Positions 5,009 through 53,970 of a stretch of 55,012 nucleotides of DNA are shown piece after piece. Made by a program: the position numbers and the translations under genes. How positions within the stretch are numbered: position 1 is the first letter of the stretch; the number at the start of each line of letters is the position of its first letter. Under the pieces are notes generated by a model. That model saw nothing but the letters and a program-made list of their open reading frames with translations, searched no databases and was not told the origin of the DNA. This stretch comes from Sutcliffiella horikoshii DSM 8719. Lineage in GTDB: Bacteria > Bacillota > Bacilli > Bacillales > Bacillaceae_I. The stretch spans positions 1 through 55,012 of the forward strand of contig LQXN01000004.1 of assembly GCA_001648575.1 (NCBI GenBank), read 5' to 3'.

Positions 5009-5030
5009 AATCCCTGTTGATACAGGGTTT
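5009..5030 (+). terminator. cheR terminator, left copy flanking element E1
   Basis: CCCTGT-TGAT-ACAGGG then TTT, directly after the cheR stop. The T tract is cut short by the start of E1 (CAGACTG at 5031). A sister copy lies at 5234-5253. Confidence 0.75.
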
Positions 5031-5233
5031 CAGACTGTCGGCAAATTAAAAGATAGTTAAGTTATCTCTTGGAGCGGTTGATCTTCGTTCCAGGAGCTTT
5101 GCTTATCCGAAGGGCGGTCCGTAACCTCCTTGTCTTACGCCTGCTGGGTCTTCCCCCAGGTGTCTACGCTCCTTCCGCTACGGATCAACAGGGGAATTTA
5201 TAACTCGAAAATAACTTTGTCTACAACACACTG
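5031..5233. mobile_element. Terminator-nested repeat element E1 (203 bp)
   Basis: Starts CAGACTGTCGGCAAAT and ends with the complement of CAGTGTG...GACAAAG, giving CAG...CTG ends. A G+C-rich imperfectly palindromic core runs 5077-5189 from GTTGATC to GATCAAC and holds the family blocks TCTTCGTTCCAGG and GGGCGGTCCGTAA. It is flanked by AATCCCTGTTGATACAGGGTTT and AATCTCTGTTGATACAGTTT. No transposase is encoded. Orientation: TTCGTTCCAGG strand is plus. Confidence 0.8.
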
Positions 5234-5258
5234 AATCTCTGTTGATACAGTTTTTTTT
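5234..5258 (+). terminator. Right copy of the cheR terminator
   Basis: CTGT-TGAT-ACAG followed by eight T. It matches the left copy apart from one substitution and loss of GG, and it keeps the full U tract. E1 lies between the two. Confidence 0.75.
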
Positions 5259-5352
5259 ATTTTTGTTCTCGTCATAAAACATCATCTGACCTCATCTTCC
5301 CTAAAATCCCCTCCAACTTGCTTTTTTTTACTAGAACAATCCGCTACACTTA

Positions 5353-5361
5353 TGATATAGT
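5353..5361 (+). promoter_or_regulatory. Likely extended -10 promoter of aroC
   Basis: TGATATAGT fits TGnTATAGT about 60 nt before the aroC start. Only a poor -35 (TAGAAC) is seen at suitable spacing. Confidence 0.4.
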
Positions 5362-5420
5362 ATTACATAATTAATTTTACTTACACGCTTAAAAGCTTTA
5401 AAGAGATAAAGGAGAGGCTG

Positions 5421-6599
5421 ATGACGATGAGATATTTGACCGCTGGCGAGTCGCATGGACCGCAATTGACAACCATTTTGGAAGGTGTCCCAGCAGGGCT
5501 GCCGCTGACTGTCGAAGATATAAATGAAGATCTTGCAAGAAGACAGAAGGGGCATGGCCGTGGCAGAAGAATGCAAATTGAAAAGGATACCGTTGATATA
5601 TTGAGTGGAGTTCGTCATGGTCAAACGTTAGGTTCTCCAATTACCCTGGCTGTAACAAATGATGATTGGAAGCATTGGACGAAGATAATGGGGATTGAGC
5701 CCCTTACTGAAGAACAACAGGATGAAGTCAAGCGTAAGGTCACCAAGCCACGTCCTGGACATGCCGATCTTAATGGTGCGATAAAATATGGACACAGGGA
5801 CATGCGCAATGTCCTGGAGCGATCTTCCGCACGTGAGACGACCGTGAGGGTTGCAGCCGGAGCGGTAGCACGAAAGTTCCTTGCTGAGCTTGGTATCAAG
5901 GTGGCCGGTCATGTAACAGAAATTGGCGGGGTGAAAGCAAAGCCGCAAAATACAACCAATTTAGATGACCTTAAAGCGAAAACCGAAGCTTCCCCGGTTC
6001 GTTGCTATGATGAAAATTCAGAACAGGCGATGATGGATGCAATTGACGCCGCTAAAGAGAATGGGGATTCCATTGGCGGCATTGTGGAAGTCATTGTGGA
6101 AGGAGTTCCCACTGGAGTAGGAAGCTATGTGCATTACGACCGCAAACTGGATGCGAAGGTCGCAGCTGCGATTATGAGCATTAATGCATTCAAGGGTGTA
6201 GAGTTCGGGGTGGGATTCCAGGCGGCTAGCCTTCCGGGCAGTAAGGTCCACGATGAAATTGCATGGAGTGAAGAGCGTGGCTATTACAGGCTTTCCAACA
6301 ACCTCGGAGGATTTGAGGGCGGCATGACAACCGGGATGCCGATTGTGGTACGAGGTGTCATGAAGCCGATCCCGACTCTTTATAAGCCGCTTCAAAGTGT
6401 TGATATCGATACAAAAGAGCCGTTCCAAGCGAGCATTGAACGTTCGGACAGCTGTGCGGTGCCAGCGGCGAGTGTGGTGGCGGAAGCGGTTGTCGCTTGG
6501 GAAATAGCTCAAGCCATCGTAGAACAGTTCGGCCAAGACAGAATGGATCTGATTAAGGAAAATGTCCAAAGGATGCGAGATCATGCAGCACAATTCTAA
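5421..6599 (+). CDS. aroC: Chorismate synthase
   Basis: Catalyses the last step of the shikimate pathway, 5-enolpyruvylshikimate-3-phosphate to chorismate, using reduced flavin. It is 392 residues, a usual length. Family signatures are visible: GESHGPQL near the N-terminus, [25 protein letters not shown], the RSSARETT block, and [16 protein letters not shown] near the C-terminus. AAAGGAG precedes the ATG at 5421; a second ATG at 5427 matches the B. subtilis start and could be used. This is the first gene of the aromatic supraoperon and overlaps aroB by 17 nt. The B. subtilis gene is called aroF. Confidence 0.97.
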
Positions 6600-7677
6600 T
6601 TGGGGTCAGGTCACGGTGGAAACCGCATCAAAGGAGTATCCCATATATTTGGGTGCTGGGGCGAGTGAATGCCTTCCGGAACTTCTTGCTTCTTTCCACA
6701 ACTCGCCAAGCAAAGTGCTGATAGTTACGGATGATTTAGTGGAAAACCTATATCTTTCCCAGATGGTAGCAAGCCTTGGTCTATCCTTTTCCGTTCATTC
6801 CTATATACTCCCGAACGGGGAGAGCGCTAAATCTTTTGAAAATTATTATGCGATTCAGACATTTGCCCTTGAGAATGGGATGGACCGGCATTCTGTCATC
6901 ATCGCTTTTGGCGGAGGAGTGGTCGGGGACATTGCAGGTTTTGTAGCCTCGACTTTCATGAGGGGCATCAAGTTCATACAGGTTCCTACAACTCTCCTGG
7001 CCCATGACAGTGCAGTTGGGGGCAAGGTTGCCATTAATCACCCTCTCGGGAAGAATATGATCGGCTCCTTCTATCAGCCAGAAGCTGTCATTTATGATGT
7101 GAACTATCTAAAGAGCCTGCCTGAAAAAGAATTGCGTTCCGGTTTTGCGGAAGTCATGAAGCATTCCCTCATATGGGATCGTGATTTCTATCAATGGATT
7201 CGTGAAAATATTCAAAGCATGGAGGATCTTACAGAATCTAAACTGCTTGTATGCTTGGAAAACGGGATGAAAATTAAGGCTGAAGTCGTTTCGACGGATG
7301 AAAAAGAAACGGGACTCCGGGCAATTTTGAATTTTGGACATACACTGGGTCATGCACTTGAGGCTGCTTATGGGTATGGAAAAATCACTCATGGTGATGG
7401 GGTTGCGCTCGGAATGCTATTTGCAACAAGGTTGAGTGAGAAGCTGAATCCAAGTCTTCGTTTGGCAGAAGAACTTAAAATAGCCTGGAAGCTTTATGGA
7501 TTTCCTACTGAAATTCGTCCGTCGGTTTCACCTGAAAGTATTTTAAGATGGATGAAGAAGGATAAAAAAACACAGAACAGTCATATACATATGGTATTGA
7601 TCCAATCAGTGGGCAAGGTGGAATTGCGGTCAGTACCTGATGAACTAATTCTTGAAACCTTGAAGGAATTTTATTGA
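6583..7677 (+). CDS. aroB: 3-Dehydroquinate synthase
   Basis: NAD- and metal-dependent enzyme converting DAHP to 3-dehydroquinate, the second shikimate step. The 364-residue protein shows the nucleotide-binding block [14 protein letters not shown], the [13 protein letters not shown] catalytic stretch, and the metal ligands in [18 protein letters not shown] and HGDGVALGM. The frame opens at an ATG at 6562, but that start has poor Shine-Dalgarno spacing. The ATG at 6583 follows AAAGGATGCGAG and gives a family-like N-terminus. The start lies inside the end of aroC, suggesting translational coupling. Confidence 0.95.
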
Positions 7678-7709
7678 AAAGAGGGTTCAACAAGCAAAGG
7701 GGGAATTCT

Positions 7710-8090
7710 GTGATCAGAGGTGTAAGAGGAGCCACAACCATACTGGAAGATTCGGAAAAAGAGATTATCAGTAAAACCGAAGAATTATTACGGTCCATGA
7801 TTAAAGCAAACAGCATAGTGGCAGAGGATGTCGCCCAAGTCTTGATATCAGTGACAGCAGATATCACAGCCTGTTTCCCGGCAAAAGCCCTGCGAAACTT
7901 AGATGGTTGGGACTTTGTTCCCGTAATGTGCACGAAGGAAATAGCTGTGCCAAAATCCCTTCCTTCCTGTATCAGGATCATGATGACAGTGAATACGGAA
8001 TTGGCACAACAAAACATCCAGCATATCTATCTCCATGGAGCGGTAACCTTGAGACCGGACCTTGCAAAATCATTAACGGTTGACAATTAG
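7710..8090 (+). CDS. aroH: Chorismate mutase, AroH type
   Basis: Monofunctional trimeric chorismate mutase that turns chorismate into prephenate for phenylalanine and tyrosine. The 126-residue protein aligns along its length with B. subtilis AroH. Key residues are present: Arg in IRGVRGATT, Glu in CTKEIAV, Arg in CIRIMMTV and Tyr in HIYLHG. The open frame begins upstream at 7674, but the GTG at 7710 sits 6 nt after AAAGGGGG. The trp promoter -35 box overlaps the last codons, so aroH marks the boundary between the upstream aro genes and the TRAP-controlled trp genes. Confidence 0.95.
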   Translation: MIRGVRGATTILEDSEKEIISKTEELLRSMIKANSIVAEDVAQVLISVTADITACFPAKALRNLDGWDFVPVMCTKEIAVPKSLPSCIRIMMTVNTELAQQNIQHIYLHGAVTLRPDLAKSLTVDN

Positions 8091-8109
8091 CAATCTTTTA
8101 TCATATAGT
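8080..8109 (+). promoter_or_regulatory. trp operon promoter
   Basis: TTGACA (8080-8085), an 18-bp spacer, and TATAGT (8104-8109). The -35 overlaps the 3' end of aroH. Transcription should begin near 8116, giving a leader of about 250 nt before trpE. Confidence 0.8.
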
Positions 8110-8194
8110 ACTTACAAGCAAGGCAACAGTTTAGAGATTAGTATAGAGATTCAAGTTGAGGGCTATAGAGCCAAGAAAGAATTTTGAAGTTTAT

Positions 8195-8248
8195 GAGTCG
8201 AGTTGAGAAGAGAATAGCTGAGAATGAGTTGAGATTAGCTGAGGTTAG
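8195..8248 (+). promoter_or_regulatory. TRAP binding site: eleven NAG triplets in the trp leader
   Basis: GAG or TAG triplets start at 8195, 8200, 8205, 8210, 8215, 8220, 8226, 8231, 8236, 8241 and 8246. Spacing is 2 nt throughout except one 3-nt gap before 8226. Eleven triplets match the eleven subunits of the TRAP ring. The last triplets overlap GGTTAGA, which can pair with TCTACC at 8265-8270 as an antiterminator. Bound TRAP would free the terminator at 8268. Confidence 0.95.
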
Positions 8249-8267
8249 AATGTATGTTTATAAATCT

Positions 8268-8303
8268 ACCCAAAGACTATCCTCTGTCTTTGGGTTTTTG
8301 TTT
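8268..8303 (+). terminator. trp leader attenuator
   Basis: ACCCAAAGAC pairs perfectly with GTCTTTGGGT across an 8-nt loop, followed by TTTTGTTTTTT. It follows the eleven-triplet TRAP site and should form when TRAP and tryptophan are present. Confidence 0.93.
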
Positions 8304-8341
8304 TTTCCTCATTCTGTAACACCTCGTTACAAACACTCATT

Positions 8342-8362
8342 CTCCATTTGGTGAAAATGGAG
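8342..8362 (+). promoter_or_regulatory. Hairpin masking the trpE Shine-Dalgarno
   Basis: CTCCATTT, loop GGTGA, AAATGGAG. The 3' arm includes the first GGAG of the GGAGGAG ribosome binding site of trpE (8359-8365). A similar TRAP-dependent structure limits trpE translation in B. subtilis; the same role here is inferred. Confidence 0.65.
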
Positions 8363-8371
8363 GAGATTAAC

Positions 8372-9886
8372 ATGCAACAGTTTGCGGAATTTCTTCAAGC
8401 AAGCAAACAGTATAATACCATTCCCATTATTGAAAGTTTTTTCGAAGACACCTTAACGCCCGTTTCCATTTTTCAAGCATTAAGAAAAGAAGCGGTATAT
8501 CTTTTAGAAAGTAAAGAGCAAAATTCTGCATGGGCGAAATATTCCTTTATCGGATTGAATCCATTTTGGAAAATATCCGCAAAAGATACGACAATTTCCT
8601 TGCAGGAAGAAAAGACAAACAGGGTGATATTTCAATCAAAGCAATTAAAGCAGGTCATCCAGCATGCAAATGAAAAACTAAATGTAAAATTTCTTGATAG
8701 AAAGATCGGGTTTACTGGAGGGGCGGTCGGTTATTTAAGCTATGATTTCATACCGACTATAGAAAAAGTCCCTATGCACCCCTCTTACGCCGGAGAACAC
8801 ACGGCCAACCTTATGTACTGCGAGGATATTGTGGTATGTGACCATAAAGAGAATGAATTGCATTTTATTCATTATATCCGGCTGGATGGGACGGAGAGTA
8901 TGGATCAGCTGCGTGAAAAGTTTGAAGAAGCAAAAGAATCGATTGCGACAAAGCTGAACCACATCAAAAAAAGAACTGACATGGAAGCACTGATTGAAGT
9001 GAAAGGAAAGAAAGATCCATTGCCTGTCCATTCCAATTATACAAAAGAGCGATTTATCGAACATGTAGATAAAATCAAGAATTATATCCAGGCGGGAGAC
9101 ATTTTTCAGTGTGTCTTATCTCAACGTTTCGAGCTTGAAGCGGACCTCGAAGGGTTTGATGTTTACCGTGTATTAAGACGACAAAATCCTTCTCCATACT
9201 TGTTCTATCTGAAATATGACGAGATGGAACTGATAGGGAGCTCTCCTGAGAGGTTGATTCAGATACAGGATAACAAGCTTGAGATTCATCCCATTGCAGG
9301 AACAAGGAAAAGAGGCTTAACAGAACAGGAAGATAAAAACTTGGCAGCAGATTTGCTGCAGGATGAAAAAGAACAGGCGGAGCACTATATGTTGGTTGAC
9401 CTTGCTAGGAATGATTTAGGGAGGGTTGCATCGTACGGTTCCGTACACACTCCAGTAATGAAAGAGCTTGTCTATTTTTCTAGGGTCATGCATCTTATTT
9501 CTATTGTTAAAGGGGAGCTATCTTTGAATTACACCCCTGTTGATGCATTGCTTGCAGCATTTCCTGCAGGTACGGTGTCAGGTGCACCAAAGGTAAGGGC
9601 AATGCAGATCCTGCAGGATCTCGAGCCGACCGTACGTAATACGTATGCAGGAGCCATCTGTTATATAGGTTTTGACGGCAATATTGATTCTTGTATTACC
9701 ATTCGTACCATTCAAAAACGAGAGAACTCTTTTTATGTTCAGGCAGGAGCAGGAGTAGTCGCAGATTCAGTTCCAGAGCTGGAATGGAAAGAAACGATTA
9801 ATAAAGCGTCCGCCTTGATTGAAACCATCCAAATAGCCAATAATTATTTTGCTAAAAAGACGGGAGGGTCATGCAGCTATGTTTAA
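8372..9886 (+). CDS. trpE: Anthranilate synthase component I
   Basis: Converts chorismate and ammonia or glutamine-derived nitrogen to anthranilate. The 504-residue product has the tryptophan feedback site LLES near residue 44, and the chorismate-binding C-terminal blocks GDIFQCVLSQRFE, GSSPERLI, PIAGTRKRG, DLARNDLGRVA, AAFPAGTVSGAPKVRAM and AGAGVVADSVPE. The frame extends upstream to a TTG at 8348, but GGAGGAG before the ATG at 8372 sets the start. No trpG lies in this operon; as in Bacillus, the amidotransferase subunit is probably pabA elsewhere. The gene overlaps trpD by 8 nt. Confidence 0.97.
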   Translation: MQQFAEFLQASKQYNTIPIIESFFEDTLTPVSIFQALRKEAVYLLESKEQNSAWAKYSFIGLNPFWKISAKDTTISLQEEKTNRVIFQSKQLKQVIQHANEKLNVKFLDRKIGFTGGAVGYLSYDFIPTIEKVPMHPSYAGEHTANLMYCEDIVVCDHKENELHFIHYIRLDGTESMDQLREKFEEAKESIATKLNHIKKRTDMEALIEVKGKKDPLPVHSNYTKERFIEHVDKIKNYIQAGDIFQCVLSQRFELEADLEGFDVYRVLRRQNPSPYLFYLKYDEMELIGSSPERLIQIQDNKLEIHPIAGTRKRGLTEQEDKNLAADLLQDEKEQAEHYMLVDLARNDLGRVASYGSVHTPVMKELVYFSRVMHLISIVKGELSLNYTPVDALLAAFPAGTVSGAPKVRAMQILQDLEPTVRNTYAGAICYIGFDGNIDSCITIRTIQKRENSFYVQAGAGVVADSVPELEWKETINKASALIETIQIANNYFAKKTGGSCSYV

Positions 9887-10904
9887 AGCCTATTTGACCA
9901 AGCTGATTGATGGGGCCAACCTATCAGCATCCGAAGCCGAAAAAGCGATGGACCTAATGATGAAAGGAGAAGTGACCTCAAGTCAGATTGCAAGCTTTAT
10001 TTCCATACTAAGGTTCAGAGGAGAAACAGCAGAGGAGATGCTCGGATTCACCAAAGCCATGCGGGGGCATATGAAGCCGATTGCCTACGAGCACCCCCAT
10101 TTAATAGACACTTGTGGGACAGGTGGAGATGGAGCATCCACTTTTAATATTTCCACTGCGTCCGCATTACTTGCTGCATGTGGTGGGGCAAAAGTCGCCA
10201 AGCACGGGAATAGGGCTGTTTCTTCCTCGAGCGGAAGTGCTGATGTGTTGGAACAGCTGCAACTACCAGTTCAACAGACACTAGAGGAAGCAACAGTTAA
10301 CCTTAAGGAAAAAGGGATGAGCTTTTTGTTTGCCCCGATTTACCATGAGGCAATGAAGCATGCGGTGGCTCCAAGAAAGGAGATCGGATTTAGGACTATT
10401 TTTAACCTTCTGGGTCCGCTTGCCAATCCTGTGCGCTGTAAAAAGCAGGTGATTGGTGTTTTTTCCAGGGAGTATGCACATAAAATGGCGGAGGTACTAA
10501 AGGAACTTGGTTCTGAGCATGTACTGATTGTAGCAGGGCATGACGGGTTGGATGAGATAACCATTACATCTGAAACGCATGTTGTAGAAGTTAAAAATGG
10601 AATGATATCATCTTACACGATCGCACCGGAAGACTTTGGATTTCCAAGAGGAAACATTGAGGACATCCAAGTGGCAAACAGCATGCAAAGTGCGCATTTG
10701 ATCAAAGAGGTCTTTCAAAATAAATCAACAGGTAGCGCAAGGAATATTGTGTGTCTGAATGCAGGTGCAGCACTTTATGTGTCAGGAATCTCTAAGACGA
10801 TTTTTCAAGGGGCAGAACTTGCCTCTCAAATGATAGAAGCCAATAAACCATACGAATTACTACAACAATTAAAGAAAGTGGGGATGAGTGAGCATGTTAA
10901 CTAA
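9879..10904 (+). CDS. trpD: Anthranilate phosphoribosyltransferase
   Basis: Transfers phosphoribose from PRPP to anthranilate. The 341-residue protein carries the PRPP-binding DTCGTGGDGASTFNIST motif, the KHGNRAVSSSSGSAD block, and FLFAPIYHEAMKHA, all typical of the family. The frame is open from a TTG at 9849, but the ATG at 9879 matches the family N-terminus; GGGAGG lies 11 nt upstream, a slightly long spacing. It overlaps the end of trpE by 8 nt and trpC begins inside its end, so translation is coupled along the operon. Confidence 0.96.
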   Translation: MFKAYLTKLIDGANLSASEAEKAMDLMMKGEVTSSQIASFISILRFRGETAEEMLGFTKAMRGHMKPIAYEHPHLIDTCGTGGDGASTFNISTASALLAACGGAKVAKHGNRAVSSSSGSADVLEQLQLPVQQTLEEATVNLKEKGMSFLFAPIYHEAMKHAVAPRKEIGFRTIFNLLGPLANPVRCKKQVIGVFSREYAHKMAEVLKELGSEHVLIVAGHDGLDEITITSETHVVEVKNGMISSYTIAPEDFGFPRGNIEDIQVANSMQSAHLIKEVFQNKSTGSARNIVCLNAGAALYVSGISKTIFQGAELASQMIEANKPYELLQQLKKVGMSEHVN

Positions 10905-14293: not shown

Positions 14294-14302
14294 TTGTCGA
14301 TC

Positions 14303-33666: not shown

Positions 33667-33811
33667 TATAATAGTGGTGTTGGGCAGTATCTCATAGAAC
33701 TGCACCTGCTGAACTATTTTAGTTATGAAGTAAAACCAACCAAATATCTGCCTTGATCCAAAGGACTGGGACAGAGGGATTGAACTGAATTTGTTTATTA
33801 CGTTATACAAC
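33667..33811 (+). ncRNA. Putative pan-type leader of panBCD
   Basis: A TATAAT at 33667-33672 (no good -35) is followed by about 140 nt of structured, non-coding sequence and then a terminator before panB. Short pairings are visible: GCAGT with ACTGC near the 5' end, and AACT with AGTT across TATTT. A conserved pan RNA motif is known from panB leaders in Firmicutes. Position and the attenuator fit, but I could not match the consensus from memory. Confidence 0.45.
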
Positions 33812-36000: not shown

Positions 36001-36021
36001 AAATCCCCCTCATATGGGTTT
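36001..36021 (+). terminator. Degenerate left copy of the terminator flanking E2
   Basis: AAATCCCCCTCATATGGGTTT. It matches the right copy at 36240 but has lost part of the 3' arm, so it is now a weak hairpin. It follows panD. Confidence 0.5.
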
Positions 36022-36239
36022 CAGGGTGTAGACAGAGTTAATTATTATTCAAAATAATGAGATTCTCGTGTTGATCGTAGTGGAAGGTGCGCAGACTCCC
36101 GCGGGAGGAAGGGACATGTAAGACCCCTCAGGCGTTGCCGAGGAGGCTTACGGACCGCCCTCTGGAAAGCGAAGCGCCTGGAACGAAGATCAACAGTTAC
36201 TTTTAAATCTTATAATATGCAATGTTTGTCTACAATCTG
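36022..36239. mobile_element. Terminator-nested repeat element E2 (218 bp)
   Basis: Starts CAGGGTGTAGACAGAG and ends GTCTACAATCTG. The core is in the opposite orientation to E1: it reads GTTGATCGTAGTGGAAGG, then GACCGCCCTCTGG and GCGCCTGGAACGAAGATCAAC. It lies between panD and dinG, flanked by two versions of the AAATCCCCCTCAT hairpin. Confidence 0.8.
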
Positions 36240-36267
36240 AAATCCCCCTCATTAATAGGGGGTTTTT
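36240..36267 (+). terminator. Right copy of the terminator flanking E2
   Basis: CCCCCT, loop CATTAAT, AGGGGG, then TTTTT. This copy has an intact stem and U tract. Confidence 0.8.
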
Positions 36268-44350: not shown

Positions 44351-44385
44351 GGGACACGTAATGCTTAAATTGCGTGTCTCTTTTT
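44351..44385 (+). terminator. Possible terminator between dnaD and nth
   Basis: GACACG and CGTGTC enclose a loop with further AAT/ATT pairing, followed by TCTTTTT. Confidence 0.65.
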
Positions 44386-44416
44386 CCATCAAAAAGAGAA
44401 AGGCAGGATTTATCCA

Positions 44417-45570: not shown

Positions 45571-45574
45571 CAAG

Positions 45575-45598
45575 AGGCTACCGTTAATTCGGTAGCCT
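45575..45598. terminator. Bidirectional terminator, left copy flanking E3
   Basis: AGGCTACCG-TTAATT-CGGTAGCCT, a perfect self-palindrome directly after ypoC. An identical copy lies at 45722-45745. Confidence 0.88.
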
Positions 45599-45721
45599 CA
45601 GTGTGTAGACGAAGTTATTTTCGAGATTGAAATTCCCAGTTGATAGTAGCGAAACTCCTGCAACGGAAATCAACTTGTTCCAACAGATAACCTTACAATT
45701 TAATGGTTTATCAACAATCTG
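45599..45721. mobile_element. Internally deleted terminator-nested element E3 (123 bp)
   Basis: Starts CAGTGTGTAGACGAAG and ends TATCAACAATCTG, so both ends match the full-length copies. The core is reduced to GTTGATAGTAG ... CTCCTGCAACGGAAATCAAC; most of the G+C-rich middle is missing. It is flanked by exact 24-bp direct repeats, each a complete terminator hairpin. Confidence 0.85.
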
Positions 45722-45745
45722 AGGCTACCGTTAATTCGGTAGCCT
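45722..45745. terminator. Bidirectional terminator, right copy flanking E3
   Basis: Identical to 45575-45598 over 24 bp. On the minus strand it follows ponA and can terminate it. Confidence 0.88.
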
Positions 45746-45756
45746 CTTGTTTCGTA

Positions 45757-48440
45757 TCAGTCGTTGTCTTCCGAGTCGTTATTGTTTCCACGCTGACCCT
45801 GGCCATTACGATTAGTATTACCCTGGGTGCTGGCACCGTCGGTTTCTTCATCGTCGCCTGGGGGTTCTTCACCGTCACCAGGTGGTTCTTCGCCATCCCC
45901 TGGAGGTTCTTCACCGTCACCAGGAGGCTCTTCATCGCCATCTCCGGGAGGTTCCTCACCGTCGCCAGGAGGCTCTTCTTCACCATCTCCTGGAGGGGTA
46001 GGGATTTCAGGGATTTCTTCTTCCTCTTCTTCGACAGCTTCAGGTATTGTTACTGTTTGAGAGGCTGCATCGCTTCTATTTTCGTTGTTGTCATCCTGTA
46101 CGGCAATAAGTTCAAACTTAAATGTTGCGCCAGGATCTGGAGATTCCACAACCAATCCAAGATCTTTCGTTTCTGTCAATGGTTGAGGAGATCCTTCATT
46201 AACAGCTACTCTAATAGCGAAGGTTACACCTTCCCGACGGTCTTCTGGATACTCCCAATTTAAGTTGATCACATTTGCTTCTTCATCGTATTCAGCTGTG
46301 AATCCTGTAGGTGCAGGAAGTTTGTCATATTCTTTAGATACCTCTGTAGGCTCAGTTCCTTTAACAAAATACTCATTCGTAACTTGATCGGAAGGAGTAA
46401 ATTCGCTAGCTTTTAACGGAGGGTTTGATCCCTTCTCGATTGGGACACGGACAACGCTGTTGGGGACAGGGAAGTCTGCTTTGTCTTCGCTCGATGTGGA
46501 GATGTTCTCCATTAACTGCTTAAAGATGATACGTGATAGATACTGATCCTGATCTACCCCATTAATCGGACGCAAGTAATTGTCCTCGCCTGTTCTCCTG
46601 AACCCGGTCCATACTGCGGCAGTATAGGATGGAGTGTATCCGGCAAACCATGTGCTCGGTACCCCGCCATTAGGAATTCCAAATTCATTGATTGTATCTT
46701 TTGAGAAGTTGGTTGTTCCTGACTTACCGGCTATGTTTAATCCAGGTACGTTAGCCGCCGTTGCTAAACCACTTCTTACAGATGTTTTCAGCATATCTGT
46801 AATCATGAAAGCAGTGGAGTCTTTCATCACCGCTTCTGATTCTTTCGTTAAATTTACGCTAGTACCATCTTGAAAAACCACTTTGGTTACAGCGTATGGT
46901 TCTGTATAAACCCCGCCACTGCCAAAAGAGCTGTAAGCTCCGGCCATTTGAAGAGGGGAGACGCCATTTGTGAAGCCACCGATGGCATATGCCTCATTGA
47001 TTTCTTCTTCGAGTGGGATGCCTAATTTAACAGCAAAATCTCTGGCACGGTCAAGTCCGACCTCTTGCAGGGCTTTTAGTGCTGGAATATTTCTTGAGTC
47101 GGCTAAATGCTGTCTCATGCTAAGATACCCTTTGTGCTTGTTATCCCAGTTATTCAACTCGGTACCAGATGAATACTTGTATGGTTCGTCATTGATTTGA
47201 TGGTATGTGGACCAATCCAGGTATTCTATAGCTGGTGCATAGTCAAGGATAGGTTTAATTGCTGAAGCGGGCTGAACTTTGATGTCAGTTGCATAGTTTG
47301 TACCCGTCTTCATATGGTTGCGTCCGCCACCTATAGCGCGGATCTCCCCGCTTTGTGTGTCAATCAATGCAATACCTGCTTGATAATCTTCATTATCCAA
47401 ATGTGGTATTCCACTTTCATCTGATAAAATATGTTCCACTTCTTCTTGAGCGTTTACATCTAGAGTTGTATAGATCTCCAACCCATCCGATTGAGGATCG
47501 ACATCGCCTAATTGGTCGGAGATTTCTTCGATGACACGATCAATAAAAGCATTATATTTATTGGAATAGTTAGTTTTCTCCACGTCGTCGGTTAAGGTGG
47601 AATCTACCGGTATGGCTTTAGCCTCATCGGCTTCCTCCTGTGAGATCTTGCCATGCTTCACCATCAGACTTAACACAATATTACGTCGTTTTTCTGCGTT
47701 TTCAGGGTTTGTGACAGGATTATAACTATTTGGGCTCTGAGGAAGCCCTGCAAGCATTGCTGCTTCATGCAGTTCTAACTCGTCCAATGATTTACCATAA
47801 TAGTTGTTGGCAGCATTGGAAATTCCATATGCATAGTTAGAAAAATAAATACGGTTCAAATACATTTCAAGTATTTCATCTTTTGTAAAACGTGACTCCA
47901 GTTGGTAGGCTAAATAGAATTCTTGCGCTTTACGCTTCAAAGTTTTATCGGTAGATAGGAAGGACAACTTTACAAGTTGCTGGGTTATTGTACTACCACC
48001 TTCCGCTCCGAAACCTCTTGTGACGTTTGCCAATACTGCTCCACCAAGTCTTCGGTAATCGACCCCGCTATGCTCATAGAAACGTACATCCTCTGTTGCA
48101 AGGAAGGCATCTTTGACAAGCTCGGGTATATCATCTGCATCTACATATTCTCTTGCTTCGTGGCCGCCAATTTCGGCTGCAAGCTCACCGTCCATTCCGT
48201 AAACCTTTGACGGTACAGGAACTTTGAGCAGCGTTTCATCTAGGGGCGGGGTGCTTTGTACATAATAAGCAAATGTGCCAATACCTGTTAATAAGCCAAC
48301 AAGTCCAATAATAAGTGCGGATAAGAATATCTTTTTGAAAAGTCCTTTTTTAGAACTTTTTTCTTTGATCCTTTTCTGGCATTTCTTTCATCTTCCATCG
48401 CTTTTCTTCTTTGTTCTCTTGATTGATACTTTTCAGTCAT
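45757..48440 (-). CDS. ponA: Class A penicillin-binding protein 1, with a -1 frameshift near the N-terminus
   Basis: Bifunctional peptidoglycan transglycosylase and transpeptidase. The transglycosylase domain has EDVRFYEHSGVDY and GAEGGSTITQQL. The transpeptidase domain has SAIK (active serine), SRN, and KSGT. A C-terminal fibronectin-like domain and a low-complexity PPGDGEE tail follow. The ATG at 48440 starts MTEKYQSREQRRKAME. The frame then needs a -1 shift at CTA AAA AAG (48353-48345) to reach KKGLFKKIFLSALIIGLVGLL, the membrane anchor, and the rest of the protein. Shifted, the product is about 894 residues, near the 914 of B. subtilis. An internal ATG at 48195 would lack the anchor. It follows recU by 45 nt. 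Confidence 0.92.
45851..45996 (-). repeat. In-frame tandem repeat encoding PPGDGEE units in ponA
   Basis: About seven 21- to 24-bp units encode PPGDG followed by two or three acidic residues at the C-terminus of PBP1. Codons differ between units, but the protein sequence is constant. This tail would be outside the membrane, in the wall. Confidence 0.85.
48345..48362 (-). other. Frameshift site of ponA (slippery A-AAA-AAG)
   Basis: Two runs of six A (minus strand 48362-48357 and 48351-48346) lie where the reading frame must shift by -1. The second is in the exact phase nnA-AAA-AAG and gives the family-like KKGLFKKI after the shift. Confidence 0.8.
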
Positions 48441-48485
48441 CTTTCAGACCTGCCTTTCTTTACTCTTGCAAATATTCCAGGGCTG

Positions 48486-49082
48486 TTAATAATACATCTC
48501 GATAATTTTAATGTAATCGATTCTAGGCTGGTAACCTTGTGGAATCAAGTAACCATCACGTTCCACTTCAAGTTTGGTAATCGATTTTCTTTCCCCGGAT
48601 TCTTTCCTTTCCCAATAATGAAATAATTTTTCTGCCGGCAGCAGATATACTTCATTAAAAAGACGGAACATTAATATGACGAAACAGATTCCATTTTGTT
48701 TCACTACTTGGCGCATATGTTGTATTTGGTGTTCATGGAAATTTTGAAGGGGAAAGGATGTCTTGTTTTTTGTCTCTTTCGCTTCAAAGTCGATATACCT
48801 TCCTTTGAACACCCCATTGAAGTCTGTAGTCGACGCCTGTTTGAAATAAGCTTCTTTGATCACAGCAGCACTTCTCTTCGGGTAATGTACATCCACTATC
48901 TGAATGGGTGTCGGCTTTTTATGGACAACTGCTATTCCTTGATGAAGATAATACATATTGGAATCATGCAGATCATCCTCTAAACTCATCCCTCGATTAC
49001 CATACAAAGTAGGTCCAGTCTTTTTGGAAGATGTATTGGCGTTTGCCTGAAAAACCTTGCCGTTAGGGTAACGGATATTCAT
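48486..49082 (-). CDS. recU: Holliday junction resolvase RecU
   Basis: Type II restriction-fold resolvase of 198 residues acting in recombination and chromosome segregation. The catalytic acidic and lysine residues lie in [21 protein letters not shown] (D...ExK). The N-terminal [25 protein letters not shown] and [11 protein letters not shown] blocks are typical. GAGGGGGAAATTT precedes the start. It is transcribed leftward ahead of ponA, the conserved recU-ponA pair, and diverges from yppC. Confidence 0.96.
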
Positions 49083-49179
49083 AAATTTCCCCCTCTAGAC
49101 TAAAACTAATCTTATATTAGAAAAAAACGTCGTCTTTGCGTAATCTTTGTCATTTCTTGTATGAAAGGGGCTTTATGGC

Positions 49180-50193
49180 ATGAAGCATGTTTCTCTCTAT
49201 TTAGATATAAAAGAAAGAAGGAAAAAGGGTAAGCACTCCTTTCAAGAAAATAAGTTTATCACTACTATTAAGAAAAATACAGCAAAATACAATCTCGATA
49301 ATATCTCCCGTACCAAAGCTTATGCGACCTACTATAATAGGAATCCTGATGTCAAATGGGCTTTCTTGGCGAGCATGGTATCCCGCAATGCCGGGTGGAA
49401 TATGACAGACCTTCAAGGTAGGTGGTATACCCTTGCATTGGATTGGGAAAAACGATATCCGATTTTTCTTACATATGAAATGGCCAATTGGCTCATATTT
49501 GATGATGCCTATCCTCAGTTACTACTTTATGAATTATCCCTTCATTATAACAGACCACTTTTTCATTTACTGAAAGAATTCAATGTATCTTGCTTTATGG
49601 AAGCAGAATGGCAATATTTTTGGGAAACTGGCGACAAAGAAAGATTGGTTACATCCTTGATAATAAATGAACAAAATTTAATTCAAGAACCTGTTTTAAA
49701 TAATAGGAAATTTCAAAGAAAAGTGTTTGGTACAAGTGTATATCTATTCCAAGACCTAGGACATTTTAGTTGTGTCGTATTTCCAACACTTGATGGCAGA
49801 CTTTATGGACATTCTGTACATGGTTTTCAAAAACTTACTAATCGTATTGAATTAGGTAAGAAATTAGCAGCCCTATTGTTTTCCGAAGAATTAAAGGATT
49901 CTTTCTTTCATTTTTCTTTGCAAACAGAGCCAACTGGATCGCGGTTTGATTATGAACGATATTTGGATGCAAGTTTATACCGGGAAACTCCTTTTTTAAG
50001 GGGTGTATATCCCGTCATTCCACATTGCAAAGAGAAGCGAGCAAAAGATTGGGTGTTTACCCAGGCAAAGCACTTAGAAAAATGGAGAAAGCCAGTATCC
50101 CTAAAAAGAAATGAAAGAATGGAATTAACGAAGTGGTTTATTCACAAGCAACATCAAATGCATAGTTTAATCGCAATGAAAAATTGGTTGTAA
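49180..50193 (+). CDS. yppC: YppC family protein (DUF2515)
   Basis: A 337-residue protein of the Bacillus YppC family. Characteristic blocks are NISRTKAYATYYNRNPDVKWAFLASMVSRNAGWNMTDL near the start, then LFDDAYP-like, FLREVYP-like (FLRGVYPVIPH) and HLEKWR segments. No enzymatic motif is recognised and there is no clear membrane segment. AAAGGGGC precedes the ATG by 9 nt. It diverges from recU and ends at the hairpin that holds E4. Confidence 0.85.
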   Translation: MKHVSLYLDIKERRKKGKHSFQENKFITTIKKNTAKYNLDNISRTKAYATYYNRNPDVKWAFLASMVSRNAGWNMTDLQGRWYTLALDWEKRYPIFLTYEMANWLIFDDAYPQLLLYELSLHYNRPLFHLLKEFNVSCFMEAEWQYFWETGDKERLVTSLIINEQNLIQEPVLNNRKFQRKVFGTSVYLFQDLGHFSCVVFPTLDGRLYGHSVHGFQKLTNRIELGKKLAALLFSEELKDSFFHFSLQTEPTGSRFDYERYLDASLYRETPFLRGVYPVIPHCKEKRAKDWVFTQAKHLEKWRKPVSLKRNERMELTKWFIHKQHQMHSLIAMKNWL

Positions 50194-50195
50194 AA

Positions 50196-50218
50196 ACAGC
50201 TCCCAATGAGGGAGCTGT
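50196..50218. terminator. yppC terminator, left copy flanking E4
   Basis: ACAGCTCCC-AATGA-GGGAGCTGT just after the yppC stop. An identical 23-bp copy lies at 50430-50452. Confidence 0.85.
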
Positions 50219-50429
50219 CAGACTGTTGACCAACTAAATATTAGGTTAGGTTATCTGTTGGAACGAGTGATCTTCGTTCCAGGCGCTTCGCTTTCCTGCG
50301 GGCGGTCCGTAAGCCTCCTCGGCTACGCCTGCGGGGTCTTACATGTCCCTTCCTCCCGCGGGAGTCTGCGCGCCTTCCACTACGATCAACTAAGGTTTTC
50401 TATCAAATTTGAGCTTTGTCTACACACTG
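50219..50429. mobile_element. Terminator-nested repeat element E4 (211 bp)
   Basis: Starts CAGACTGTTGACCAAC and ends TTTGTCTACACACTG. The core contains TGATCTTCGTTCCAGGCGC, GCGGGCGGTCCGTAAGCC, CCTCCCGCGGGAGTCTGCGC and TACGATCAAC, with the same orientation as E1. It is flanked by exact 23-bp copies of the yppC terminator. Open frames inside it are not genes. Confidence 0.87.
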
Positions 50430-50455
50430 ACAGCTCCCAATGAGGGAGCTGTTTT
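50430..50455. terminator. yppC terminator, right copy flanking E4
   Basis: Identical hairpin followed by TTTT. It can also serve the minus-strand sspM, which ends at 50468. Confidence 0.85.
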
Positions 50456-50467
50456 AGATTGAATAAA

Positions 50468-50575
50468 TCATGTTGAAGGACGGTTTGGGCCTTTTAACTT
50501 TTTATCTTCTTGACCAGGTGCACTTTCAACCTGATTTTTACGTTGCTGTTGTTGTTTTTTCTGTTCTTTGGACAT
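50468..50575 (-). CDS. sspM: Small acid-soluble spore protein M
   Basis: A 35-residue basic and glutamine-rich protein ending in DKKLKGPNRPST, which matches the C-terminus of B. subtilis SspM (DKKLGGPNRPST). SspM is a minor spore-core protein made under the forespore programme. A strong ribosome binding site (GGAGGGATTTCC) precedes the ATG. A longer frame on this strand begins upstream but lacks support. It sits between yppC and yppD as in B. subtilis. Confidence 0.88.
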   Translation of the reverse strand: MSKEQKKQQQQRKNQVESAPGQEDKKLKGPNRPST

Positions 50576-50764
50576 GGAAATCCCTCCTCTTAACTTTTGG
50601 TTCATTGTTATTTTTATCAAATCGTGGTTCAAACATGCGGAAAAAGGGTGGAGAACTGCAAATAAACACTTTCTTTGCCGAATTGCTTCTAGTTTTGTCA
50701 TACGGGAAGGGAGAGGAAGTAGGACGGCGAATCTTAGTATTAATAAAGTATGGAGGGGATTTCT

Positions 50765-51022
50765 ATGTCCAAAGTATTGGTTTCTAGAACGGAGATTACG
50801 GGCTTGTTCCATGAAATGATGCTTCAAATGGATTTATTGGAGGAAACGATGTCAAGTTCGCTTAAAATAGAACGGGAAGAAATGGAAGAGGTTATGAAAC
50901 ATCAAATTAACCGGCTGCACTTGACTCTGGATGAAGTGGAAAAAGTGATGGCCGAACACCGTATGCCAAAGGTACAGAACCAAAAGCAAATTAACTTTAA
51001 TCAGAATGCTTACTCTGTATAA
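50765..51022 (+). CDS. yppD: YppD family protein
   Basis: An 85-residue, mostly helical acidic protein beginning MSKVLVSRTEITGLFHEMM and matching B. subtilis YppD by position and N-terminal sequence. The middle (EEMEEVMKHQINRLHLTLDEVEKVM) is likely a coiled coil. The function is unknown. GGAGGGG lies 6 nt before the ATG; an upstream in-frame ATG at 50750 overlaps this site and is less likely. Confidence 0.78.
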   Translation: MSKVLVSRTEITGLFHEMMLQMDLLEETMSSSLKIEREEMEEVMKHQINRLHLTLDEVEKVMAEHRMPKVQNQKQINFNQNAYSV

Positions 51023-51061
51023 GGAGATATGGTAATATGTATTGCTAGAGGTGAGTGTAAA

Positions 51062-51424
51062 ATGTCTGGCAATCATCAAAGTGTTAAAGAATGCACTGTT
51101 AAAATCTTAAAGGATTTGGAAAGAATAGAAGAGACTTTTGTATTATCACGAGATAAAAAAGAGGCACCCGATTTTTTCCAAACCGTTAAGCCTTTTGCGG
51201 ACGAAGTTCATATTACAGTGCAGGACTGGGAAAAGTATGTAAAAGAATGGATTTCAGCAGTTAGGCCTAAGAATATTCATACTCAACAAATTGATAGCAC
51301 TGTGGAAAACATAAATATGGTTTCTGTACAATGCTTTTATCCAGATACTAGGGAGAAACGTTTTAAGGGTATGATTCAATCCATTAAATATGTAATGAAT
51401 GATGTGCTGACAAAAATCCATTGA
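51062..51424 (+). CDS. yppE: YppE family protein (DUF1798)
   Basis: A 120-residue helical-bundle protein of the YppE family. The conserved part is FFQTVKPFADEVHITVQDWEKYVKEW, followed by RPKNIHTQQIDSTVENI and VQCFYPDTREKRFKG. The function is unknown. The frame is open from an ATG at 51029, but GAGGTGAG before the ATG at 51062 gives a better start. It ends just before the hairpin holding E5. Confidence 0.88.
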   Translation: MSGNHQSVKECTVKILKDLERIEETFVLSRDKKEAPDFFQTVKPFADEVHITVQDWEKYVKEWISAVRPKNIHTQQIDSTVENINMVSVQCFYPDTREKRFKGMIQSIKYVMNDVLTKIH

Positions 51425-51430
51425 AAAAAA

Positions 51431-51455
51431 AGCCTATCCAATAAATGGACAGGCT
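51431..51455. terminator. yppE terminator, left copy flanking E5
   Basis: AGCCTATCCA-ATAAA-TGGACAGGCT. One mismatch in the stem; the right copy at 51676 has the perfect stem. Confidence 0.82.
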
Positions 51456-51675
51456 CAGTGTGTAGACAAAGTTATTTTATCTTTGAGACATGCAAAACCT
51501 GTGTTGATCGTAGTGGAAGGCGCGCAGACTTCTGCGGGAGGAAGGGACATGGAAGACCCCGCAGGGCGTAAGCCCGAGGAGGCTTCCGGACCGCCCGCGA
51601 AAAGCGAAGCGCCTGGAACGAAGAACAACTGTTTTAACAAATAACCTAACTAATTTATAGTTTGTCAATAGTCTG
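51456..51675. mobile_element. Terminator-nested repeat element E5 (220 bp)
   Basis: Starts CAGTGTGTAGACAAAG and ends TTTGTCAATAGTCTG. The core reads GTTGATCGTAGTGGAAGGCGC through GCGCCTGGAACGAAG, opposite in orientation to E4. It is flanked by 25-bp hairpin copies that differ at two positions. Confidence 0.87.
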
Positions 51676-51700
51676 AGCCTGTCCAATATATGGACAGGCT
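51676..51700. terminator. Right copy of the terminator flanking E5
   Basis: AGCCTGTCCA-ATATA-TGGACAGGCT, followed by TTTC on the plus strand. It also follows the minus-strand gene ending at 51710. Confidence 0.82.
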
Positions 51701-51709
51701 TTCATGTGA

Positions 51710-51877
51710 TTAAGATCGGTCTTTTTCGGCTTTGTTGGTGACAGGTGCATCTTCGGCTGTTGCAACCGGCTCAATTGCGTATTCCACTTTTTCAAAGACT
51801 TTTTTCTCTGCAGGTTTTGCACCTATCGTAGGTTCATGTCCTTTTTTCTTGTGATTGAAGTTTTTGCCACGACTCAT
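51710..51877 (-). CDS. Small hydrophilic protein of unknown function
   Basis: A 55-residue lysine- and glutamate-rich protein, MSRGKNFNHKKKGHEPTIG at the start and ending NKAEKDRS. The ribosome binding site AGGAGGGAATGA is strong, which supports a real gene and fixes the ATG at 51877 over longer upstream frames. It has no hydrophobic segment. Size and composition resemble minor spore proteins, but no family was recognised. It lies between yppE and yppF. Confidence 0.6.
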   Translation of the reverse strand: MSRGKNFNHKKKGHEPTIGAKPAEKKVFEKVEYAIEPVATAEDAPVTNKAEKDRS

Positions 51878-51986
51878 TTCATTCCCTCCTTTACTCAATT
51901 TATCTTTCCACGAGAGTGTTAATCTCATTACTTCAAATTCCAAATAAAAAAGGAGACCAGTAAAGGTCTCCAAGTATCATGCATTA

Positions 51987-52190
51987 TCAGGTTAATTCTA
52001 ACAGATCTTCAAATGTATCAGGCGGAACAGCACCTTTTAGTTCTAACTCACGAATCAAATTTCGGAAATGACCAATAGTGAGTTCTCCTCTAAGATAAAG
52101 CTGTCTGGCAAAATCCATTAACTCGTTATGCTCCAGCGGTTCATAGCTTTTACAGGTGATAAATTTTTGACGCAACTCTTCTAGTACCAT
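51987..52190 (-). CDS. yppF: YppF family protein
   Basis: A 67-residue protein with the YppF-like core YEPLEHNELMDFARQLYLRGELTIGHFRNLIRELELKGA, likely a two- or three-helix bundle. The function is unknown. GGGGGGATATACG precedes the ATG at 52190, so the longer upstream frame is not used. It is divergent from yppG. Confidence 0.8.
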   Translation of the reverse strand: MVLEELRQKFITCKSYEPLEHNELMDFARQLYLRGELTIGHFRNLIRELELKGAVPPDTFEDLLELT

Positions 52191-52339
52191 CGTATATCCC
52201 CCCACTTTTGAAGTTAAGTTAATGATAGCATGCATTTGGAATTTTTCTCGTTTTTGAAAAAGTGAAACTTCCGACAAAATAAGACAAGTTTCGTCGCGAA
52301 TGTAGTCATCCTATTAGTTTTTATATAGATATAAATAGG

Positions 52340-52368
52340 CACCTTTCCTGTTTTGAGTTCATATGTTA
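52340..52368 (+). promoter_or_regulatory. Candidate sigma-K promoter of yppG
   Basis: CACC (52340-52343), a 16-bp spacer, and CATATGTTA (52360-52368), which fits the mother-cell pattern AC...CATAnnnTA. A spore-coat-like product downstream is consistent with this. Confidence 0.5.
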
Positions 52369-52397
52369 TGTATAGCTAGAAAAGAGGAGGGGTTTGA

Positions 52398-53009
52398 ATG
52401 TTTAGGAGAATGTACGGCAGACCTAGACATTTATCATATAACCGCAACATGTCATTATTTAATCAACTTCCTTTCTTGAATAACTTTCTGCCTAACGGAA
52501 ACGGTGGAGGAATGCAAGGAATGTTCCCGCAACAGTATATGGACGCGGGCTGGATGAATCAACAGGGGATGCCTTCTAATTATATGAATATGATGCCTCT
52601 TACGGGAGGTAATGCATCTTCATCCGGTTTTCCATTTGCTATGATGAACCAAATGGGACAGAACCCATATTCATCAAATATGCAAATGGGTGGGGGAGGA
52701 CAGAATGGATTTCAACCGAATATGGCAATCGGCCAAAACGGATTTCCAATGGGAATGCAGATGCCTGGTATGCCTCAAGGCGGGGGAATGCCTAACCAAA
52801 TGGGCACTCCTTTTATGAATCCTTACCCTACACAGGCACAATCAACAAAAACTCAGACATCCCAGGTCAATTCCTTTATGAACCAATTCAAAGGACAGGA
52901 TGGCAATGTCGATATGAAAAAAATGATGGATACTGCAGGCCAGATGATGAACACCGTCAATCAATTGAATAGTATGTTTAAAGGTCTTGCAGCAACATTT
53001 AAAGCGTAG
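52398..53009 (+). CDS. yppG: YppG family coat-like protein
   Basis: A 203-residue low-complexity protein rich in Met, Gln, Asn, Gly and Pro. It starts MFRRMYGRPRHL and has repeats such as QNGFQPNMAIGQNGFPMGMQMPGMPQGG. The C-terminal 45 residues (VNSFMNQFKGQDGNVDMKKMMDTAGQMMNTVNQL) form the conserved YppG helical end. Such composition is typical of spore coat or surface proteins. AGAGGAGGGG precedes the ATG, and a possible sigma-K promoter lies upstream. Confidence 0.85.
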   Translation: MFRRMYGRPRHLSYNRNMSLFNQLPFLNNFLPNGNGGGMQGMFPQQYMDAGWMNQQGMPSNYMNMMPLTGGNASSSGFPFAMMNQMGQNPYSSNMQMGGGGQNGFQPNMAIGQNGFPMGMQMPGMPQGGGMPNQMGTPFMNPYPTQAQSTKTQTSQVNSFMNQFKGQDGNVDMKKMMDTAGQMMNTVNQLNSMFKGLAATFKA

Positions 53010-53029
53010 CTGACCCGATTGAATGTGAG

Positions 53030-53052
53030 GATGCCCGAGGAGGCATCTTTTT
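53030..53052 (+). terminator. Terminator of yppG
   Basis: GATGCC, loop CGAGGA, GGCATC, then TTTTT. Confidence 0.85.
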
Positions 53053-53113
53053 CCATTCTATAGAGAAAGCCCCATATGCCCTTTCTCCATGGAATTTTCT
53101 CACCATTATTAAA

Positions 53114-53138
53114 GGGAGAGAACGAAGCATTCTCTCCC
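53114..53138. terminator. Hairpin downstream of the minus-strand gene at 53167
   Basis: GGGAGAGAA and TTCTCTCCC around CGAAGCA. On the minus strand it is followed by TTTAATAATGG, so it probably terminates the small gene to its right. Confidence 0.65.
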
Positions 53139-53166
53139 AAAAATATTCCTCTAAGGGAACAAATAG

Positions 53167-53358
53167 CTATTTATGATAATCGCCTTTTGGATCCTGCTCA
53201 AAAAAGAAGTTGTCAAGCTTCTCCTCTTCTTGGTGGTTAATAGAAGAGCTGTAATAGGGATTTTCATCTTTTTCTTTATCATCAAGATTTGTTTTAATGA
53301 CAAGTGACGGAGAAGTGGATGGACTTGCGTACACTTTTTTATATTTTTCTTTGCTCAT
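53167..53358 (-). CDS. Small hydrophilic protein of unknown function
   Basis: A 63-residue charged protein, MSKEKYKKVYASPSTSPS at the start, rich in Ser, Asp, Glu and Lys, and ending DPKGDYHK. A strong ribosome binding site (GAGGAGGTG) precedes the ATG at 53358; an in-frame ATG at 53367 lies on that site. No family was recognised. It is in a cluster of tiny proteins near sspM and yppG, so a spore role is possible. Confidence 0.6.
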   Translation of the reverse strand: MSKEKYKKVYASPSTSPSLVIKTNLDDKEKDENPYYSSSINHQEEEKLDNFFFEQDPKGDYHK

Positions 53359-53491
53359 AATGTACACCTCCTCACGTTTATCCTTTGTAGCGGTGATAAT
53401 AATATGTAGGTAACAAATTGAAATTCATTACCAGACATAAAAAAACAGCTACTATCCATGCTAAGAACGTACTATGAAAGGAGGATTTCAA

Positions 53492-53641
53492 ATGACAAAT
53501 AGAAACGATAACAGAGAGCGGAAAAATAAATTCCCAAGTAATCAACATAGAGAAGAAGTGGCTAAAGAAATGGCAACCATTCAAATGGACTCCACTCCAG
53601 AAGATAACGAAAAATACGGTTCAAAATCACATAAAAATTAA
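53492..53641 (+). CDS. Small hydrophilic protein of unknown function
   Basis: A 49-residue highly charged protein, MTNRNDNRERKNKFPSNQ at the start and ending KYGSKSHKN. It is preceded by a very strong ribosome binding site (AAAGGAGGATTTCAA), which supports translation. A central EEVAKEMA helix is likely. It resembles spore-core or coat-associated small proteins in size and composition only. The stop is followed within 7 nt by the hairpin next to E6. Confidence 0.62.
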   Translation: MTNRNDNRERKNKFPSNQHREEVAKEMATIQMDSTPEDNEKYGSKSHKN

Positions 53642-53647
53642 AATAAA

Positions 53648-53673
53648 AACAACGCAGCAAATCTGCGTTGTTT
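53648..53673. terminator. Terminator at the left end of E6
   Basis: AACAACGCAG-CAAAT-CTGCGTTGTT then T. It ends the 49-residue gene. No second copy is found on the right of E6. Confidence 0.85.
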
Positions 53674-53970
53674 CAGACTGTTGACAAAGCCCTAAATATT
53701 TTTAAATTTTGCATCCTGCTGTTGATCTTCGTTTCAGGCGCTTCGCATTTCGCGGGCGGTGCGGAAGCCTCCTCGGGCTTACGCCCTGCGGGGTCTTCTC
53801 TGTCCCTTCCTCCCGCAGAAGTCTGCGCGCCTTCCACTACGATCAACACTGGTTTTGCATATCTCAAAGTATAATCTTTAAAAACATTTGCAATACCCAA
53901 GTGATCTCGTATAAAGTGAAGCGCCAATTACTATAAAATTTTTAAATCTATAAGGTTTGTCGACACTCTG
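53674..53970. mobile_element. Repeat element E6 (297 bp), without a right terminator copy
   Basis: Starts CAGACTGTTGACAAAG and ends TTTGTCGACACTCTG. The core (GTTGATCTTCGTTTCAGGCGC to TACGATCAAC) is close to E4 and E5. About 80 bp of extra AT-rich sequence lies between the core and the right end. The right end abuts the stop codon of the small heat-shock gene (53973). Confidence 0.78.

Follow-up and report, generated by a model that had tools for sequence, protein, structure and literature searches.

The window analysed here is a 55,012-nucleotide stretch of the genome of Sutcliffiella horikoshii DSM 8719 (contig LQXN01000004.1, positions 1 to 55,012; C14 among the 67 contigs of the 4,677,891-bp assembly, G000), in which six short repeated elements, E1 to E6, are found beside intrinsic terminators. 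Judged from their sequence, they appear to form a family of non-autonomous miniature inverted-repeat transposable elements (MITEs) of about 210 bp. The preliminary description of this DNA had located all six, with CAG...CTG ends and terminal inverted repeats (TIRs) of a common form, and had placed five of them between two copies of a hairpin; rereading the sequence recovers the same coordinates and ends and TIRs near that form, the poorest fit being E1, with two mismatches at the left end and three additional bases in the right TIR. Five of the six do lie between two hairpin copies, and the matches within a locus were recounted as 24/24 at E3, 23/23 at E4, and 23/25 at E5; the copies at E1 and E2 are homologous but diverged. 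The hairpins are alike within a locus and unlike between loci. The features are as follows, with the evidence for each in brackets.

5009..5030, no strand: E1 left terminator hairpin copy, AATCCCTGTTGATACAGGGTTT (sequence)
5031..5233, minus strand: E1, putative MITE, 203 bp (TIRs and profile match)
5234..5255, no strand: E1 right terminator copy, diverged (sequence)
36001..36021, no strand: E2 left terminator copy, decayed (sequence, flank comparison)
36022..36239, plus strand: E2, putative MITE, 218 bp (TIRs, paired-end search)
36240..36265, no strand: E2 right terminator copy (flank comparison)
45575..45598, no strand: E3 left terminator copy, 24 bp (24/24 against the right copy)
45599..45721, plus strand: E3, putative MITE, 123 bp, core shortened internally (TIRs, paired-end search)
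45722..45745, no strand: E3 right terminator copy (flank comparison)
50196..50218, no strand: E4 left terminator copy, 23 bp (23/23 against the right copy)
50219..50429, minus strand: E4, putative MITE, 211 bp (TIRs, paired-end search)
50430..50452, no strand: E4 right terminator copy (flank comparison)
51431..51455, no strand: E5 left terminator copy, 25 bp (23/25 against the right copy)
51456..51675, plus strand: E5, putative MITE, 220 bp (TIRs, paired-end search)
51676..51700, no strand: E5 right terminator copy (flank comparison)
53647..53673, no strand: E6 left terminator copy, the right copy missing (sequence, flank comparison)
53674..53970, minus strand: E6, putative MITE, 297 bp (TIRs, paired-end search)

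The TIR pattern, with at most one mismatch, occurs 318 times in the whole genome versus three times for the reversed pattern used as a control. In a genome sample of 1,645,569 bp (C3 and C4 whole, the first 400 kb of C5 and C67, and C14), 52 elements with paired ends were found, versus one pair for the control. The similarity of left and right flank exceeds the 99th percentile of cross-locus comparisons (11) in 49 of these 52; cross-locus flank pairs have a mean similarity of 6.0 and a maximum of 26, which 11/52 elements surpass. E6, C4:70801, and C4:80561 fall short of this percentile; C4:80561 is probably a false pairing. An element profile built from 40 paired copies (consensus 210 bp) gave 147 matches in the sample, including, at 30 bits or more, 50 full-length copies, 30 with one end, and 50 without ends. 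Locus-specific direct repeats of a hairpin flank 49 of the 50 full-length copies, and the duplication, which the preliminary description had asked to be sought elsewhere in the genome, is thus present at nearly all of them. Extrapolation by length gives about 140 full-length copies for the genome. Pairwise identity among full-length copies has a median of 0.79 and a maximum of 0.995, and nearly all copies in the genome are non-autonomous. Where open reading frames (ORFs) of at least 100 aa lie on both sides (n = 51), 21 elements stand between convergent and 30 between co-directional ORFs and none between divergent ones, and a single element of the 52 falls inside an ORF call; this context is where terminators occur.

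The state of the sites before insertion was approached through three congeners, at about 80% DNA identity, for the elements on C4 and C14 (28 elements in the hairpin count, 29 in the site alignment). Among 48 site-by-species comparisons, 34, covering 21 sites, were kept, in which the relative is smaller than the own site by at least 150 bp; the 14 left out show the element, a different insert, or a smaller size difference. An empty site had been expected to hold a single terminator, and one hairpin is found in 25 of the 34 comparisons, none above threshold in nine, and two in no case. At the nine of the 21 sites where the hairpin detector recovers both own copies, the counts are one hairpin in 13/15, none in 2/15, and two in 0/15. 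The size differences fit the element plus one repeat: −234/−235 for 211 + 23 at E4, −209 for 181 + 28 at C4:20065, and −481 for 450 + 31 at C4:107251 in G012. Within the window, the E1 site has one hairpin in G012 and the element with the hairpin duplicated around it in G015, the E4 site is filled in G015 and empty with one terminator in G012 and G002, and the E5 site has one hairpin in G002 and G012. At the E3 site, the G015 copy is 91 bp longer than E3. E6, the exception in the window with a left hairpin only, was tried as a counterexample to duplication and rejected, because the element has both hairpin copies at this site in G012 and G015; most simply, the right copy was lost later in the window genome.

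A search for an insertion sequence (IS) with the same inverted repeats had been advised, with the IS1182 family as a guess, and such an IS exists in that family. In the own genome, a copy at C4:393188-394685 has in-frame stops, the ends CAGCTTGTAGACAAA and CAGACCGTAGACAAA, and a hairpin copy on each side, the left one about 7 nt shorter; a second, damaged copy lies on C58, and one solo end elsewhere in the assembly. The own genome has no match to the family model NF033551 above its cut-off of 270, the degenerate copies scoring in pieces. An intact IS of 1,513 bp, encoding 445 aa, with a perfect 30/30 duplicated terminator is present in a congener (G001), whose IS transposase is 100% identical, with matching coordinates, to that of the Sutcliffiella horikoshii plasmid pBH-BAT-167; the IS on the plasmid has a perfect 30-bp terminator duplication and matching TIRs. 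MITE and IS have the ends CAG..TGTWGACAAA in common and agree in detail, with ...ACAAAGT on the left and ...ACAAAC on the right. The partner transposase (P0001) scores 477.4 bits against NF033551 and contains the Pfam domains DUF772 and DDE_Tnp_1_6; D147, D274, and E401 are invariant in 18/18 aligned transposases and would constitute the catalytic DDE triad. An AlphaFold2 model of the transposase (18 sequences) was discarded as too poor (predicted local distance difference test score, pLDDT, 47; predicted template modelling score, pTM, 0.36). The marks of a MITE, namely a short element, TIRs in common with an IS, and a target duplication, are all present, and the autonomous partner of E1 to E6 and their relatives is likely an IS of the IS1182 family whose ends match. 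Bacillus sp. OV166 and SG-1 have a similar G+C-rich core between the left end of the IS and its transposase gene, and a core-bearing IS of this kind is a plausible ancestor of the MITE.

The intact IS (L326; NZ_CP082921.1 63981-68315) has as neighbours an FRG-domain gene and a phosphoadenosine phosphosulfate reductase-family gene, both possibly involved in defence. Another IS1182-like IS, at G000:C67:28445-29743, scores 262 bits, below the family cut-off. Copies of it recur, at 98.9-100% identity, where contigs C4, C31, C49, C53, C57, and C67 end, and it probably breaks the assembly. As candidates for the partner, the IS1182-like fragments at contig ends were rejected: six of them were compared and are 98.9-100% identical to this IS, and the 4.3-kb locus around it contains no TIR match within three mismatches.

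A scan of named genomes gave 455 relatives of the partner IS, from which 80 IS loci were kept, several from the same genome. A direct repeat abutting the TIRs (at least 12 bp, at most two mismatches) is present at 63 of the 80 and is perfect in 61 of these 63. In a phylum sample of 249 genomes, relatives at E 1e-60 or better occur in 13, the own genome included; of the 30 loci, 26 remain without the four of the own genome, and 18 of these 26 have hairpin-centred repeats, at transposase identities of 45-66%.

The geometry of the duplications was studied in a set of 93 repeats under the same definition, comprising those of the 63 IS loci and of 30 of the 52 paired MITEs. All 93 have different sequences, and they are 19 to 42 nt long (median 25), each length from 19 to 33 being represented. 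Hairpins on both flanks of nearly every copy would also be expected if they were part of the element, or had been doubled by recombination rather than by insertion; the diversity of the 93 repeats, the cross-locus flanks, as a rule unlike, and the one hairpin of orthologous empty sites make this explanation extremely improbable. The centre of the repeat coincides exactly with the dyad of the hairpin in 85/93 cases and lies within 1 nt of it in 92/93; with wider or asymmetric context, the figures are 85 exact and 91-92 within 1 nt. Complementary ends of at least five pairs are found in 71% at the true position and in 0-4% when the window is slid by 1-4 nt. The cuts mostly fall 1-3 A:T pairs beyond the last G:C pair, the first base of the repeat being A in 76/93 and the last T in 84/93. 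Dyad centring, complementarity, and variable length speak for a structure as what is recognised.

Terminators carry A- and T-tracts, and on double-stranded DNA each subunit of a transposase dimer could instead recognise the A-rich terminator flank on its own strand, the hairpin being incidental. The cuts are indeed A-rich (A in 79% at −1 and 86% at +1, n = 186 pooled cuts; pooled AA|AR), and tracts of at least 6 of 9 stand on both sides at 39/93 sites. This explanation is nevertheless unlikely: where a tract stands on at most one side, centring within 1 nt of the dyad persists at 28/28 sites, the spacing is variable, with no helical phasing visible by eye, and exact centring in 85/93 would require coincidence. 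Quite unlikely, too, is a broad insertion after which selection keeps only copies at terminators. An intergenic position 3' of genes is a benign place, and selection may still act among hairpins; however, the repeats themselves are dyad-centred hairpins, also in IS with perfect repeats, which selection cannot create.

Taken together, it is very probable that the MITEs are moved in trans by IS1182-family transposases and inserted at terminator hairpins, with the whole hairpin duplicated. The anatomy of ends and flanks, the at most one detected hairpin at empty sites, the matching IS, the dyad centring, and the recurrence across Bacillota are what the sequences support directly. In the mechanism we propose, a DDE transposase of the IS1182 family would mobilise the MITEs in trans and would pick intrinsic-terminator hairpins of any sequence, recognising an extruded cruciform or a single-stranded hairpin, where the two feet are near each other. 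The element ends would be joined at points symmetrical about the dyad, the 5' feet of the hairpin, and gap repair would copy the entire hairpin to both sides; the duplication length would vary with the hairpin because the stagger spans it. That the enzyme attacks a four-way junction, and that a short-range transfer in space becomes a stagger of 19-42 nt in the sequence, is a proposal for which we see an even chance. Instead of a double-stranded cruciform, the target could also be a single-stranded hairpin on the lagging strand, in an R-loop, or in the wake of RNA polymerase; dyad-centred duplications are equally compatible with it, and terminators are sites of transcription and supercoiling, and we hold it as a tentative, less probable alternative. 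In either form, the pattern suggests that the transposase is guided by the shape of the target and not by the sequence.

Tracts around the duplicates indicate what such an insertion may do to termination. T amounts to 6.0 per 9 nt after the right copy versus 3.3 after the left copy, and A to 5.8 per 9 nt before the left copy versus 3.8 before the right copy. The T-tract stays with the right copy and the A-tract with the left, and therefore the U-tract hairpin of each strand would lie on the far side of the element. Where tracts exist, insertion may thus spare termination, and the element would end up in transcripts as 3' untranslated RNA. At four places (C4:35650-35681, C5:162851-162881, C5:353918-353943, and C67:347993-348017), two elements have one hairpin between them, and thus a duplicated terminator can be targeted again. 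If attack on a four-way junction is the mechanism, the secondary structure of DNA would set the length of the target duplication, each insertion would leave one intact terminator per strand and make two targets from one, and the element could multiply at terminators with little harm.

Several observations weigh against this reading. No intact partner IS was found in this assembly, which yielded two degenerate copies and one solo end; it could be truly absent or hidden at contig breaks. The empty sites are those of other species at the DNA identity given above rather than of sister strains, and the hairpin detector overlooks many hairpins in that comparison. The length of the target-site duplication (TSD) does correlate with that of the hairpin (Spearman 0.48), in favour of the reading, but only moderately with the stem measure used. 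The MITE repeats are imperfect in 15/30 of the strict set, and many insertions are therefore old. Among the named genomes, 17/80 IS loci lack the repeat: 13 of the 17 have no detectable TIR pair, several lying at contig edges, and four (L189, L241, L245, and L246) have TIRs, L246 with a hairpin on each side, two different ones, as after recombination between copies. In the phylum sample, the ends of the IS were chosen partly by the repeat itself, and 8/26 loci are without it: two begin at a contig end, two match only in part, and the other four are L297, L298, L301, and L302. One Enterococcus faecium ISEfa7 copy (59% identity), with both ends resolved, has no flank repeat, a cut IS256 gene lying on its left and a terminator-like hairpin on its right, and two other E. 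faecium relatives gave no resolved right end. More distant still are three IS1182-family transposases at 25-28% identity, those of an ISCfr1-like element, ISShsp2, and a Sinorhizobium member; unlike the IS considered here, these have different TIRs and best direct repeats of 4-6 bp (one copy each). Whole-hairpin duplication thus marks a large group within the IS1182 family and not the whole family.

Hairpin targeting has been published for IS1272 of the IS1182 family (PMC5678879, PMC4923244). According to these two papers, IS1272 and TnSha1/TnSha2 of staphylococci are IS1182-family elements with 16-bp TIRs, which insert at hairpins of unrelated sequence, in some cases just downstream of genes, and several of their target hairpins were confirmed as terminators by RNA-seq (PMC4923244); both papers note, with reference to Siguier 2015, that palindromes are the targets of some IS1182 members. 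Unlike the present elements, IS1272 and TnSha1/TnSha2 are described there as removing or partly deleting the stem-loop, without target duplication, and whole-hairpin duplication appears in the PMC5678879 passages as a hypothetical alternative pathway only. Stem-loop replacement of the IS1272 type is not the pattern seen here, with repeats at 63/80 IS loci and 92/93 repeats hairpin-centred. The preliminary description had known of no account of the terminator duplication; hairpin targeting itself was already published, as cited, and in the open-licence literature, as far as its passages extend, no whole-terminator duplication was found beyond the PMC5678879 model, a scope that leaves aside IS reviews and ISfinder, where prior notice is possible. 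As far as these sources go, it is well supported that the present case is the alternative pathway of PMC5678879 seen as the rule, together with a high-copy MITE that uses it; in contrast to IS1272, duplication is the rule here and nearly all copies in this genome are non-autonomous. Analogous to the bacterial MITEs reviewed in PMC10969869, the elements are short, non-coding, intergenic, and bounded by TIRs derived from IS ends; the passages of that review mention no terminator-targeting MITE, and the terms IS1182 and Bacillus do not occur in its text. A Staphylococcus aureus plasmid match annotated as IS1182 family is 25% identical across roughly half of the protein. Group IIC introns also insert at intrinsic terminators, reading the stem-loop; they differ in being retroelements that lack TIRs, enter beyond the hairpin, and do not duplicate it. 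Should our interpretation be correct, the model drawn for IS1272 becomes a quantitatively supported rule for a broad clade of IS1182, namely that the target is a shape, which the duplication length follows, and structure-guided DDE transposition becomes testable with designed hairpins in a common laboratory Bacillus. One origin of duplicated terminators and of 3' untranslated sequence that has been inserted would also be explained, and dyad-centred repeats of variable length would be diagnostic for IS1182 ends that TSD searches of fixed length would miss.

In an Rfam scan of the window, E1 to E6 have no match at the gathering score; the sole match is a pan motif (RF01749) at 33681-33778, with 66 bits, and, from the motif alone, the ORFs 3' of it are presumably pantothenate genes. 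Contig C32 of G000 repeats positions 47681-50218 of the window at 99.96% and stops where E4 begins, which is probably an artefact of assembly delimited by these repeats.

The G+C-rich core was tried as the defining feature of the family and rejected, since the own sample contains 30 complete cores that belong to neither the paired nor the full-length set. On inspection by eye, about five of these are decayed members, and most others have different borders. G002 has many cores and few of these TIRs. The TIR-free cores, e.g., C67:46389 and C4:356545, and L260-L275 in G002, are in some cases close to start codons, and at least two other border sets, CTGTTGATTGGAGC..AATCAACAGCGG and CCTGTAGATTG..ATCTACAGG, are found among them. 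The core thus looks like an independent repeat family common to several carriers. At the G002 site orthologous to E3 (L256-L259), a core without TIRs lies beside a terminator, reflecting either decay or a different element. Compound elements of about 440 bp (C3:122386-122822, C4:107251-107700, C67:115430-115865, and C67:147097-147536) consist of the MITE and a further core-bearing element with ends of about GGCCACTGAAAAA. The inserted element sits near the apex of the core palindrome, at profile positions of about 102-107, and is possibly another hairpin-seeking element.

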